Positions 34,331 through 38,591 of a stretch of 43,592 nucleotides of DNA are shown piece after piece. Source of the DNA: Deltaproteobacteria bacterium (GTDB lineage: Bacteria; Myxococcota_A; UBA796; SXON01); the NCBI GenBank assembly GCA_016875435.1, contig VGRE01000004.1, forward strand, positions 1 through 43,592, given 5' to 3'. A program made the translations under genes and the position numbers. Position 1 is the stretch's first letter, and the number at the start of each line of letters is the position of its first letter. The notes under the pieces were generated by a model. The model worked only from the letters and a program-made list of their open reading frames with translations. It had not been told where the DNA came from and did not search any database.

Positions 34331-34360
34331 TTGCGCCCCGCCCGTGCATCGGGCTATCGT
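34331..34360 (+). promoter_or_regulatory. Candidate promoter (TTGCGC, 18-bp spacer, TATCGT) for the Cys leader/cysH operon
   Basis: -35/-10-like hexamers; -10 ends 9 nt before the leader ATG, compatible with leaderless translation. Confidence 0.4.
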
Positions 34361-34369
34361 CTCGCAGCG

Positions 34370-34456
34370 ATGCCCTCCCGTGTTGCCCCCGCCTCTGCCA
34401 CCAGCTGCACCTGTTGCTGCTGTTGTGCCCTGGCCGGGGCGAACGCGGGATCATAG
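34370..34456 (+). CDS. Cysteine-rich leader peptide MPSRVAPASATSCTCCCCCALAGANAGS (28 aa), putative attenuator uORF of cysH operon
   Basis: ATG CCC TCC CGT GTT GCC CCC GCC TCT GCC ACC AGC TGC ACC TGT TGC TGC TGT TGT GCC CTG GCC GGG GCG AAC GCG GGA TCA TAG, 72 nt upstream of the cysH ATG; too short for the ORF track. Confidence 0.7.
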   Translation: MPSRVAPASATSCTCCCCCALAGANAGS

Positions 34457-34523
34457 CCTAGATTCCCACGTTCCCCCGGCCGAGTGCCGGGGGAAAGCCT
34501 CCGGCGCGGCCATGTCCCCGGAG
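34432..34523 (+). promoter_or_regulatory. Candidate attenuator: hairpin TTCCCCCGGC-CGAGT-GCCGGGGGAA (34471-34495), alternative pairings, and SD-sequestering hairpin CTCCGG...CCGGAG (34499-34523)
   Basis: Segment 1 GGCCGGGG (34432-34439) complements segment 2 CCCCGGCC (34474-34481); segment 2 region pairs with 3 GCCGGGGG (34486-34493); 3 pairs with 4 CCCCGG (34516-34521), which overlaps the cysH GGAG (34520-34523). Confidence 0.6.
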
Positions 34524-34528
34524 ACAAG

Positions 34529-35173
34529 ATGTCGGCACCCGTTCCCCTCGCCACGGGCGACGCGCGCGAGTTGTTGCGCGCCACCGTCGCCCAGTTCGGC
34601 CCGCGCGCCGCGCTGGTTTCGGCGCTCGGTCCCCAGACCTTGTGCATCCTGCAGCTGCTCCGCCAGGAGGGACTGTCCCTGCCCACCTTCTTCCTCGACA
34701 CCGGCTGCCACTTCGCCGAGACCCTCGCCTTCCGCCAAGAGGTGGAGCGACACTTCGGCGTCGAGGTACACGCGGTGCGTCCCGCCCTCGACCCGGGACC
34801 ACTCCACGCCACCGACCCCGAGCGCTGCTGCGCGATCCGCAAGGTGCAGCCCTTGCAGCAGCTCCTCGGCGGCTTCGAGGCCTGGGTGAGCGGCATCCGC
34901 GCCGAGCAGACCGCCGACCGCGCCGAGGCCGCCGCCGTGGAGTGGGACCTGCGCTTCGGGCTGTGGAAGGTAAACCCGCTCCTGGGGTGGTCGCGGGCGA
35001 CGGTCGACGAGTTCCTCTCGCGACACGGCGTCCCCACCAACCCCCTGCTGGCAAGCGGTTACCGCTCCATCGGTTGCGCGCCCTGCACGCAACCGTCCAC
35101 CGACGAGCGCGGCGGCCGCTGGCCCGGCCTCGCGAAGACCGAGTGCGGCTTGCACCGCCGGAGTTCCGCATGA
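34529..35173 (+). CDS. cysH: Assimilatory (phospho)adenylyl-sulfate reductase, APS-type Cys motifs
   Basis: TFFLDTGCHFAETLAFRQEVE; ERCCAIRKVQPL, GCAPCT and TECGLH; GGAG 5 nt before the ATG. Confidence 0.93.
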   Translation: MSAPVPLATGDARELLRATVAQFGPRAALVSALGPQTLCILQLLRQEGLSLPTFFLDTGCHFAETLAFRQEVERHFGVEVHAVRPALDPGPLHATDPERCCAIRKVQPLQQLLGGFEAWVSGIRAEQTADRAEAAAVEWDLRFGLWKVNPLLGWSRATVDEFLSRHGVPTNPLLASGYRSIGCAPCTQPSTDERGGRWPGLAKTECGLHRRSSA

Positions 35174-37215
35174 CTTTCCGTGTCGCCGGCGAGCGCCCGG
35201 CCGTCCTCGCCGAGATCGAGGAGCTGTCCAGCCAGATCGAGCGGTACCGCCGCGGGCTGGTACCCGAGCACGTGTTCGTGGAGCGGCGCCTACGCCACGG
35301 CATCTACGGCCAGCGCCAGGACGGCGTGCACATGATGCGAAGCAAGCTGCCGCTGGGGCTCATCAGCCCGGCGCAGCTCGCCGCCTTCGCCGACATCGCG
35401 GAGACCTACGGCTCGGGGGTGGCGCACCTCACCACCCGCCAGGACATCCAGGTGCACTTCGTGCGCTTGCCGAGCACGCCGGGCCTGCTCCGCGACCTCG
35501 ACGCCGCCGACATGAGCGCGCGCGAGGCCTGCGGCAACGTGGTGCGCAATGTCACCGCCGCCGCCAACAGCGGCGTGGTGAGCGAGCCCTTCGACGTGAC
35601 CCCGCACGCGCTCCGCCTCGCCCGCTTCGCGATGCGCCACCCCGACGGGCAGGCCCTCGGCCGCAAGTTCAAGATCAGCTTCGCCAGCGTGAACGACCCC
35701 CTCTGGAACCTCGCGCGCATCCACGACCTCGGCTTCACCGCCCGGCGTCGCGACGGCGTCGATGGCTTCGAGGTGCGGGCCGGCGGCGGCCTCGGCGCGG
35801 TGCCGATGGAGGCGCAGGTGCTCCACGACTTCGTGCCGGCCGACGAGATCGCGAGCCTCACCCAAGCGGTGCTCCGCGCCTTCGCGCGGCACGGCGAGAA
35901 GAAGAACCGGGCGCGGGCGCGGCTCAAGTTCTTGCTCGCTGACTGGGGCATCGAGCGCCTCCGCGCCGAGGTGGCGGCGTTGACCGAGCCGGTCGCGACC
36001 GAGCCGCTGCCCCCGGTGGCCGACGCGCCGCTGTTCCCACCCGGGACCAGCACCGCCCACGGCCCCGATCTGCTCGCCCAGCGACAGCCCGGCTACGTCG
36101 CCGTGAAGGTACGCGTGCCCCGCGGGGATCTCACGCCAGCGCAGCTCCGCGGCCTCGCGACGCTCCTCGCCCGCGAGGTGGGCGACACCACGCGCATCAC
36201 GCCGGAGCAGGGCCTGCTGGTGCGCTTCGTGTCCACCGATCGCCTGCGCGCGGTGCGCGAGGGCCTCGCCGCCCTCGGACTCGGCGATAGCGGCGCCCAC
36301 GGCCTCGCCGACCCGGTCACCTGCCCCGGGGCCGACACCTGCAAGCTCGGGATCACGCGTCCCCGCGCGGTCGCGACCGCGATGGGCTCGGCGCTCGACG
36401 CCCTAGCCGTCGACGAGAAGCTGTCGCGACTCCGCGTCCACATCTCGGGCTGCCCCAACGGCTGCGCCCAGCACGCCATCGCCGACATCGGCTTCTACGG
36501 CGCCGCGCGCACTGTCAACGGCGTCGTGGTGCCGCACTACCTGGTCATCCTCGGCGGCGAGGCCGGGGGCCTGGCCTTCGGCGGCGCCGTGGCCAAGGTG
36601 CCCGCGGCCCGGGGCGGCGAGGCGGTCCGCGTTCTCGCCGAGGCATTCCGGCTGTCGAACGCGGCGAGTTTCGCCGAGTTCGTCCGCGCGAGCGGTCGCC
36701 CGGCGCTCAAGGCCCTGCTGGAGCCGCTGCAAGAACTCCCCGCCCTCGAGGCCGACCCTGCGGCCTACCGCGAGGCCGGGAGCGACGAACCCTTCCGCGT
36801 GGTGCGCGGCGTGGGCGAGTGCGCCGGCGAGGTGGTCGACGGCGCCGACTTCCTGCTCAGCGACGCCGACGCCGCCGTGGAGGAGGCACACGCCCGTCCA
36901 GAGCGCGCCATCGTCGCGACCGAGCGCGCCTTCCGCCTCGCCGCCCGCGCCTTGCTCGCCGTCGACCATGCCGAGCCCCGGGCCGACGCCGAGGTGCTCG
37001 CCGCCTTCAAGTCCCGTTTCTACGAGGCCGGCCGTATCTTCGAGGGCGTCGGCTACTACTACCTGCACGCCGCCACCGAGGCCGATCCTACCGGTGACCG
37101 CTTACGACGCCGCGTGGCCGAGGCCGAGTTGTTCGTGCAGGAGGCGCACGGCATCGTGGGCCGAATACGCGCGCCCGCCCCCCAGCCGCGCCACGCCGCG
37201 CCGGAGGCCACGTGA
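35170..37215 (+). CDS. Sulfite reductase (siroheme/4Fe-4S) with helical C-terminal extension
   Basis: LTTRQDIQVHFV; CPGADTC...GCPNGCAQHAIADIGFYG cluster-binding cysteines; ATGA overlap with cysH. Confidence 0.92.
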   Translation: MTFRVAGERPAVLAEIEELSSQIERYRRGLVPEHVFVERRLRHGIYGQRQDGVHMMRSKLPLGLISPAQLAAFADIAETYGSGVAHLTTRQDIQVHFVRLPSTPGLLRDLDAADMSAREACGNVVRNVTAAANSGVVSEPFDVTPHALRLARFAMRHPDGQALGRKFKISFASVNDPLWNLARIHDLGFTARRRDGVDGFEVRAGGGLGAVPMEAQVLHDFVPADEIASLTQAVLRAFARHGEKKNRARARLKFLLADWGIERLRAEVAALTEPVATEPLPPVADAPLFPPGTSTAHGPDLLAQRQPGYVAVKVRVPRGDLTPAQLRGLATLLAREVGDTTRITPEQGLLVRFVSTDRLRAVREGLAALGLGDSGAHGLADPVTCPGADTCKLGITRPRAVATAMGSALDALAVDEKLSRLRVHISGCPNGCAQHAIADIGFYGAARTVNGVVVPHYLVILGGEAGGLAFGGAVAKVPAARGGEAVRVLAEAFRLSNAASFAEFVRASGRPALKALLEPLQELPALEADPAAYREAGSDEPFRVVRGVGECAGEVVDGADFLLSDADAAVEEAHARPERAIVATERAFRLAARALLAVDHAEPRADAEVLAAFKSRFYEAGRIFEGVGYYYLHAATEADPTGDRLRRRVAEAELFVQEAHGIVGRIRAPAPQPRHAAPEAT

Positions 37216-38591
37216 GCGTTCGACAGGTCATCTCCTTCCCGGGGGCGACGCCCGACCCGGTGTCCTACATGGCCGGCCTGCGTCTCAAGCGTCGCGACGC
37301 GCTGGTGGTCGGGGGCGGGGCCGTGGCCACCCAGCGGGTCCGCGCGCTCCTGGCGGCCGGCGCGGCGGTCACCGTCGTGGCCCCGCGGATCGGCGCCGAG
37401 CTGCTGGCCCGGCTCACCGCGGGCGAGATCGTCCACCACGCGCGCCTGTTTGCCCCCGCCGATCTGCAAGGCATGGCCGTGGTCCTCGTCGCCATCGACG
37501 ACCGCGTGGTGAGCGCAGCCATCGCCCGCTACGCCCGCCAGCGCGGCGCCTGGGTGAACGTGGCCGACCGTCCCGAGCTCTGCGACTTCTACCTCCCCGC
37601 CATCCACCGCGCCGGCCCGGTGCAAGTGGCGGTCTCCACCGACGGCGCGAGCCCCGGCCTCGCCGCGCGCCTCCGCGACGAGATCCGCGACGCCCTCCCC
37701 GCCGATCTCCCCGCCGCCGTAGAGAACTTCGCCGCGCTGCGCCAGCAAGTCCGCGGCGAGGAACCCGACCCGGCGGTGCGCATGGCGAAGCTCGCGAAGA
37801 TCGCCCGCGAGACGCCGTGGTCCACCCTGGCCAACGGCCGGAAGGTCGCCGAGAATCCCCACCCTGTGACCCTCGCCAGCGCCGGCCCCGGCAACCCCCG
37901 GCTCCTCACCCTCGCCGCCCGCGACGCCCTCGCCGCCGCCGACCTCGTCGTGGCCGATCGCCTCGTCCCCGCCGAGATCCTCGCCCTCGCGGGCGGCCGC
38001 GTCATCCTCGCTGACGACAAGCACGATCCCGCCTCGGTCGCCAGCGTGCAGTCCCGCATCTACGCGCTGCTCCGCGAGGCCCACGCCCGCGGCGAGCGCT
38101 GCGTTCGGCTCTGCGCGGGCGACGTGGCCATCTTCGGCCGGCTCCACGAGACCATCGAGGCCCTGTCCCCGGTGCCCGTCGAGGTGATCCCCGGCGTGTC
38201 GGCCCTCACCGCGCCCGGCTTCCCCCTCACCGCGCGCGGCGTGGCCGATCGCTTCACCGTGGTCAGCGCCCGCGGCGCCGGGGGCGCTCCCGGCTCGCTG
38301 CCGCCCTACGATCCGCGGCAGACGCTGGTCATCTTCATGGGCGCGGGGAGCCTTCCCGCCCTGTCCAGCGCCTTGTTGTCCTTGTGCTACCCTCCCGGCG
38401 CCGCCGCGCTCGTCGTCAGCCAGGCCACCCGCCCCGGCGAGTCGCGACAGGTCGCGACGGTAGCCACGCTCGGCGATCTCGACGCGGAAGCCCCGGCGGT
38501 AATCTACGTCGGAGGTGCGGCGGTGCTCGCGATGCTACCGCCGTCGCGCGAGGAGCTTGGCGGGGGAGAACAGCGGGTCGAAGGGGGGTAG
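37212..38591 (+). CDS. cysG: Siroheme synthase (precorrin-2 dehydrogenase / uroporphyrinogen-III methyltransferase fusion)
   Basis: LVVGGGAVATQRVRALLAAGAAVTVVAP; ADRPELCDFYLPA; VTLASAGPGNPRLLTLAARDALAAADLVVADRLV; GTGA overlap with the sir gene. Confidence 0.94.
   Translation: MSVRQVISFPGATPDPVSYMAGLRLKRRDALVVGGGAVATQRVRALLAAGAAVTVVAPRIGAELLARLTAGEIVHHARLFAPADLQGMAVVLVAIDDRVVSAAIARYARQRGAWVNVADRPELCDFYLPAIHRAGPVQVAVSTDGASPGLAARLRDEIRDALPADLPAAVENFAALRQQVRGEEPDPAVRMAKLAKIARETPWSTLANGRKVAENPHPVTLASAGPGNPRLLTLAARDALAAADLVVADRLVPAEILALAGGRVILADDKHDPASVASVQSRIYALLREAHARGERCVRLCAGDVAIFGRLHETIEALSPVPVEVIPGVSALTAPGFPLTARGVADRFTVVSARGAGGAPGSLPPYDPRQTLVIFMGAGSLPALSSALLSLCYPPGAAALVVSQATRPGESRQVATVATLGDLDAEAPAVIYVGGAAVLAMLPPSREELGGGEQRVEGG

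Follow-up and report, generated by a model that had tools for sequence, protein, structure and literature searches.

What does a short, cysteine-rich reading frame do directly upstream of an operon that makes cysteine? The window, by which we mean the whole 43,592-nt stretch of DNA analyzed here, carries on its + strand an ORF of 28 codons, MPSRVAPASATSCTCCCCCALAGANAGS, that runs from an ATG at 34370 to a TAG at 34454-34456 (34370..34456). The preliminary description of this DNA had reported a closed frame with six Cys codons, five of them consecutive, ending 72 nt before cysH, and its coordinates and codons proved exact: Cys occupies codons 13, 15, 16, 17, 18, and 19 (6 of 28), and the 72-nt gap extends from the stop to the cysH ATG at 34529. 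Codons for an end product placed before the operon of its own pathway are a general mark of attenuators. Based on sequence comparison and RNA folding, we propose with a probability of roughly 0.85 that the leader is a cysteine-responsive ribosome-stalling attenuator that would act mainly on translation of cysH, and its presence suggests that genome annotation misses a regulatory gene here.

The identity of the downstream operon, previously given as cysH-sir-cysG, is backed by profile matches to each of the three genes, all on the + strand. cysH (34529..35173), encoding an APS/PAPS reductase, matches PF01507 and NF002537 (phosphoadenylyl-sulfate reductase; 205.9 bits against a cut-off of 154). 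The start of sir (35170..37215), which encodes a sulfite/nitrite reductase hemoprotein with PF01077 and PF03460 domains, overlaps the cysH stop by ATGA, and the start of a cysG-like siroheme synthase gene (37212..38591; PF13241, PF00590, and PF14824, with NF007922 below its cut-off) overlaps sir in turn. Sulfate assimilation via the cysH operon is patchy in the genus, with a cysH match absent from eight of 11 genomes (G001-G007 and G009).

Runs of four Cys codons are not rare in this 4.78 Mb metagenome-assembled genome (25 matches), and five in a row occur at only three places. Of these, the window locus alone was seen to combine a short ORF and a nearby ATG with a Cys-pathway gene downstream. 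Among the 25 four-Cys matches, no other was seen to fit a Cys leader. Codon choice in the leader is also distinct, with TGT at three of six Cys codons versus TGC at 19 of 19 in the five neighboring genes. The peptide has no Pfam match, and an Rfam scan of the leader region returned no family and one chance microRNA match (E 0.92).

We then asked how much of this arrangement is kept in relatives. A cysH of the window type is found in three of the 11 genomes of the genus, the window's own and those of loci L021 and L022, and conservation at the genus level therefore rests on three genomes. All three carry the leader at the same place with identical length, ATG, and TAG. The upstream alignment that the preliminary description had called for thus came out in favor of the ORF, as both cysH-bearing genus-mates keep the ATG, the Cys run, and the stop in this frame. 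The Cys stretch reads CTCCCCC in the window and L022 and CTCCCWC in L021, where one Cys codon has become Trp (TGG), and the sensor codons TGC ACC TGT TGC TGC TGT TGT (34406..34426, + strand) are 95-100% identical across the three species. Identity between the window and L022 amounts to 29% ahead of the promoter and 80% between promoter and ATG. Within the leader it is 67% over codons 1-12, 100% in the Cys run, and 97% from codon 20 to the stop, and it then reaches 93% for the hairpin region and 83% for the initial 300 nt of cysH. Comparison of all three species gave 97-100% for the codons after the Cys run and 91-94% for the helix region; the corresponding values are 29-39% for the DNA directly preceding the promoter and 83-90% for cysH. 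Downstream of the Cys run, third codon positions are nearly unchanged, which points to constraint on the RNA. A DNA search with the leader across the order returned only the three genus copies as real hits, the remainder being short chance matches.

Promoter-like boxes precede the leader ATG on the + strand. A -35-like TTGCGC (34331..34336) and a -10-like TATCGT (34355..34360), separated by an 18-nt spacer, are conserved in all three species, in which the DNA around the -35-like box is otherwise unrelated; the -10-like box lies at the same position (-15 from the ATG) and ends 9 nt before it in each. A TANNNT box at the same spacing is present in the more distant loci L005 and L006 (TAGACT/TAGAGT), a placement found at 1% of window ATGs, and boxes read by eye stand 7-8 nt before the ATG in L184 (TTGACA-17-CATCGT) and before the first leader of L201 (TTGACG-17-CATCAT). 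The same open frame could begin farther upstream at GTG 34316 (46 aa), but we favor 34370 because the promoter-like boxes and the ATG are conserved. The predicted transcription start falls at about 34366-34370, 5-9 nt past the -10 box, which would leave no room for a Shine-Dalgarno sequence of the leader itself, so the ORF is probably leaderless or has a 5' UTR of a few nucleotides.

Cys-run leaders are also present before cysH in four more genera, which we found by searching the class and phylum for cysH and reading the upstream DNA. L005 and L006 carry tandem leaders (MKTFAAIACCPCACMCTGAGACG and MRFLSSAMCCPCPCCLHRADGSVRTST), L185 and L184 single ones (MTPTRPTAPICCLCRCCGAAGVWIDVA and MSPLAPLPVFARNQACACCCLCAEAGAVTV, respectively), and L201 another tandem pair (MSHRFVCCCCCCCPGAVFASGER and MTRTARDLSQHRTTKACACCCCCCCCPCGAVAPRHGPSNGGFG), so that two of the four additional genera have leaders in tandem. 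Between genera the peptides show no evident similarity outside the Cys run. Scanning up to 600 nt upstream of cysH at 114 loci for short ORFs with at least five Cys in nine codons yielded 12 in sense orientation (11 distinct) and none antisense, with two in 560 kb of background strand. Mycobacterial nirA-cysH leaders were recovered by the upstream scan, providing a positive control, and leaders of the mycobacterial type were found again in Mycolicibacterium and Demequina loci. Mapping leader presence onto a cysH tree takes three changes of state, versus 7.6 for shuffled labels, and the leader-bearing cysH genes may have one origin.

In the +2 frame the tract reads as Leu codons, and the preliminary description had cautioned that conservation of the frame would matter. 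The run could have arisen by chance as a CTG/TTG-rich tract, or it could encode a poly-Leu peptide in that frame; repeats of this kind are common in the phylum. An unbiased scan of 35 phylum loci, run for each of the 20 amino acids, decided against both: Cys-run short ORFs were found upstream of cysH at eight of 35 loci versus zero expected, with none antisense and none in 146 kb of background strand, and Leu-run short ORFs at zero of 35. Nor was a conserved start found in the Leu frame. We therefore rejected the poly-Leu frame, the Cys frame being the one that is kept, and give chance or poly-Leu origins almost no credence. CTC is the preferred Leu codon in five window genes (126 of 221) and occurs at zero of 44 positions in the Leu frame of the runs, a comparison that is partly circular since the runs were picked by Cys and on which we do not rely. 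As a leader finder across the phylum, a six-Cys pattern was uninformative, being dominated by simple repeats. Matches to six consecutive TGY codons were far above those of other genomes in G309 (621/425) and G336 (83/54), an excess that probably reflects such repeats.

The RNA downstream of the Cys run is predicted to form two mutually exclusive sets of helices (34432-34523). Six segments on the + strand take part. Segment 1 (34376..34390) pairs with segment 2 in the minimum-energy fold when no ribosome is present. Segment 2 (34432..34452) begins 5 nt past the Cys run and can form 19 pairs with segment 3 (34461..34481), the predicted ON helix. In the OFF state, segment 3 would instead pair with segment 4 (34484..34495) in a 10-bp hairpin (34471-34480 with 34486-34495), and segment 5 (34498..34507), which contains the anti-Shine-Dalgarno CTCCGG at 34499-34504, would pair with segment 6 (34518..34523), the CCGGAG that includes the cysH Shine-Dalgarno GGAG (34520-34523). 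In the ON state, 34484-34493 of segment 4 would pair with 34498-34507, freeing the Shine-Dalgarno. Segment 6 is invariant in the three species and sequestered in the OFF folds.

To mimic ribosome position we folded the leader from different 5' ends, hiding the RNA up to the front edge of the ribosome, with ViennaRNA equilibrium folding as a stand-in for cotranscriptional folding in the presence of ribosomes. Under this model the mean unpaired probability of the Shine-Dalgarno is 0.02-0.03 for the whole leader. With the ribosome over the Cys run, modeled by a 5' end at 34379-34430, it rises to 0.5-0.64; with the ribosome at the stop, modeled by a 5' end at 34442-34472, it is 0.01-0.03. Advancing the ribosome from the Cys codons to the stop thus switches the predicted state from open to closed, and zero of 600 dinucleotide shuffles of 34427-34515 gave as large a difference. 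L021 and L022 behave in the same direction with smaller values (about 0.4 and 0.2-0.4 with the ribosome on the Cys run). The helices are nearly invariant among these three close species, so that covariation adds no proof of the pairing. In silico, then, ribosome position sets exclusive helices, a second general property of attenuators.

For the wider set of leaders we determined how ribosome position affects pairing between the segment just past the Cys run and the 5' arm of the OFF hairpin. In seven of eight leaders this segment captures the arm with the ribosome over the Cys run, and does so to a lesser extent with the ribosome at the stop. Shuffled sequences did at least as well in 2, 2, 28, 3, 32, 43, and 19 of 300 cases for the seven; the window, L022, and L184 are clearly beyond shuffles and the other four are weaker. 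The second leader of L201 fails this test, and in L185 the Shine-Dalgarno is closed at equilibrium for every ribosome position; kinetic folding or another layout is therefore needed at those two leaders. The L184 terminator is almost constantly on under equilibrium folding, the behavior that a kinetic switch should show.

These elements suggest how the leader might operate. Transcription would start at or a few nucleotides from the ATG, and a ribosome would translate the leader. When Cys-tRNA is ample, the ribosome would reach the stop and cover segment 2, allowing the strong 3:4 hairpin (34471-34495) to form; segment 5 would then pair with the cysH Shine-Dalgarno, turning off cysH and the coupled sir and cysG genes. 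When Cys-tRNA is scarce, the ribosome would stall in the Cys run and remove segment 1, leaving segment 2 free for segment 3; segment 4 would then take segment 5, and the cysH Shine-Dalgarno would be open. RNA that is not translated would form 1:2, 3:4, and 5:6 and be off by default, and it could also be lost to Rho. We infer stalling on Cys-tRNA shortage and its effect on cysH from this model, in which low cysteine means on, as suits a cysteine-making operon. The claim that the Cys-rich leader works as a cysteine attenuator is accordingly well placed, with the conserved frame, the four further genera, and the predicted RNA switch supporting it.

The same Cys sensor could instead regulate transcription, through Rho or through pausing at the 3:4 hairpin. 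Precedent for such an output lies within the phylum, since L184, L201, and the first leader of L005/L006 are followed by a hairpin and U-run, an intrinsic terminator through which the same sensor would act, and in the window the untranslated stretch past the leader stop could admit Rho. By contrast, the 3:4 hairpin of the window, L021, and L022 is followed by AAAG, AGGG, and ACAG, and the Shine-Dalgarno GGAG and its complement are invariant in all three. Because there is no U-tract, we read the output in the window as most likely initiation of cysH translation, and regard a transcriptional output there as unlikely, if worth keeping in view. Hairpins complementary to the Shine-Dalgarno can also be read from the sequence of L185 and of the second L005 leader, suggesting that the phylum has both kinds of output. 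A different proposal assigns the function to the peptide encoded by the Cys run, which would work in trans or arrest the ribosome, for instance in response to metal or redox state, with no role for Cys-tRNA charging. Cys-rich peptides can bind metals; a role for the peptide is possible. Between genera, however, the peptides lack evident similarity outside the run, and only three things are kept: a high frequency of Cys codons, the switching RNA that follows them, and the gene downstream. This is the pattern that a sensor reading codons should leave, and we consider a function of the peptide itself very improbable.

Translational control of cysH by Cys-codon stalling, the reading we prefer, has a counterpart in mycobacteria. 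Cysteine attenuation was proposed for mycobacterial Cys-rich leaders, including that of nirA, with the remark that this would make them the first bacterial case of attenuation directed by cysteine (Shell et al. 2015, PMC4633059). As far as later papers report it, cysteine-dependent attenuation by leaderless poly-Cys ORFs was found in M. smegmatis (Canestrari et al. 2020, via PMC9031893, PMC13236596, and PMC9094748). The earlier statement that poly-Cys attenuators are described in mycobacteria agrees with these papers (PMC4633059, PMC9031893). In both settings a short Cys-run ORF, leaderless in mycobacteria and probably leaderless or nearly so in the window, precedes Cys-pathway operons, there including nirA, and translation of the next gene is attenuated in a cysteine-dependent manner in mycobacteria, as we propose for the window. 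The stalled mycobacterial ribosome reportedly frees the ribosome-binding site. Unlike the mycobacterial leaders, the window leader lies in another phylum, encodes an unrelated peptide, and has cysH as the first gene of its operon. Two codons separate the Cys run from the stop in mycobacterial nirA (CSCCCLP*) versus nine in the window, and within those nine lies one of the switching segments of the predicted RNA, whose six segments make the arrangement trp-like. Relatives of the window also differ in using terminators and tandem leaders. We found no sign of common descent: peptide similarity is not evident past the Cys run, and the window cysH is not nested among actinobacterial cysH genes in the cysH tree. 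The window leader would thus work like the mycobacterial device with a different layout, nine codons from run to stop and six segments.

Other known systems share part of this design. The uORFC-8-2 motif upstream of cysS in Rhodobacterales likewise has Cys codons in a short upstream ORF, from which ribosome-mediated attenuation was inferred (PMC8632094). That motif has two tandem Cys codons and an intrinsic terminator, and it precedes an aminoacyl-tRNA synthetase gene in Alphaproteobacteria (PMC8632094), whereas the window has cysH downstream, no U-tract, and no Rfam match. Like the trp, his, leu, and ilv attenuators, the window leader has end-product codons, exclusive helices governed by ribosome position, and a default off state; unlike them, its signal would be cysteine and its output access to the Shine-Dalgarno rather than a terminator. 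In the open-access literature that we searched, we found no cysteine attenuation for Myxococcota or Deltaproteobacteria, in agreement with the preliminary description, which knew of none in this type of organism; experiments in that literature concern only mycobacteria, to which the Rhodobacterales motif prediction is added.

On balance we lean toward a recurrent device of the phylum (probably Myxococcota), independent of the mycobacterial one, in which one poly-Cys sensor on a nearly leaderless ORF is coupled to varied outputs. If this is true, those outputs comprise Shine-Dalgarno sequestration, an intrinsic terminator, and a tandem combination of the two upstream of a single operon. That one kind of sensor precedes cysH in five genera outside the mycobacterial phylum, with a readable RNA switch and with outputs that vary between translational and transcriptional, suggests either more than one origin of cysteine attenuation or an age and spread far beyond what has been assumed. 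The exact RNA segments defined here yield predictions for single mutations.

Several smaller features accompany these loci. The cysH genes of L191, L192, L195, L198, and L200 are without a Cys leader. Promoter-proximal words seem common to these loci and are perhaps the operator of a different sulfur regulator; one such word is ATTCCGACCGGTTTGGTGTGTTTATG, present in L198 and, in nearly the same form, in L192. The tandem leaders of L005, L006, and L201 each have their own hairpin or terminator, which would form a double cysteine gate, and in L005/L006 the terminator comes first and the Shine-Dalgarno-type element second. Finally, the word CCTAG occurs at or near the stop of most leaders (34456-34462 in the window, and in L184, the second leader of L005, and both leaders of L201), where it lies within or close to the 2:3 helix loop.
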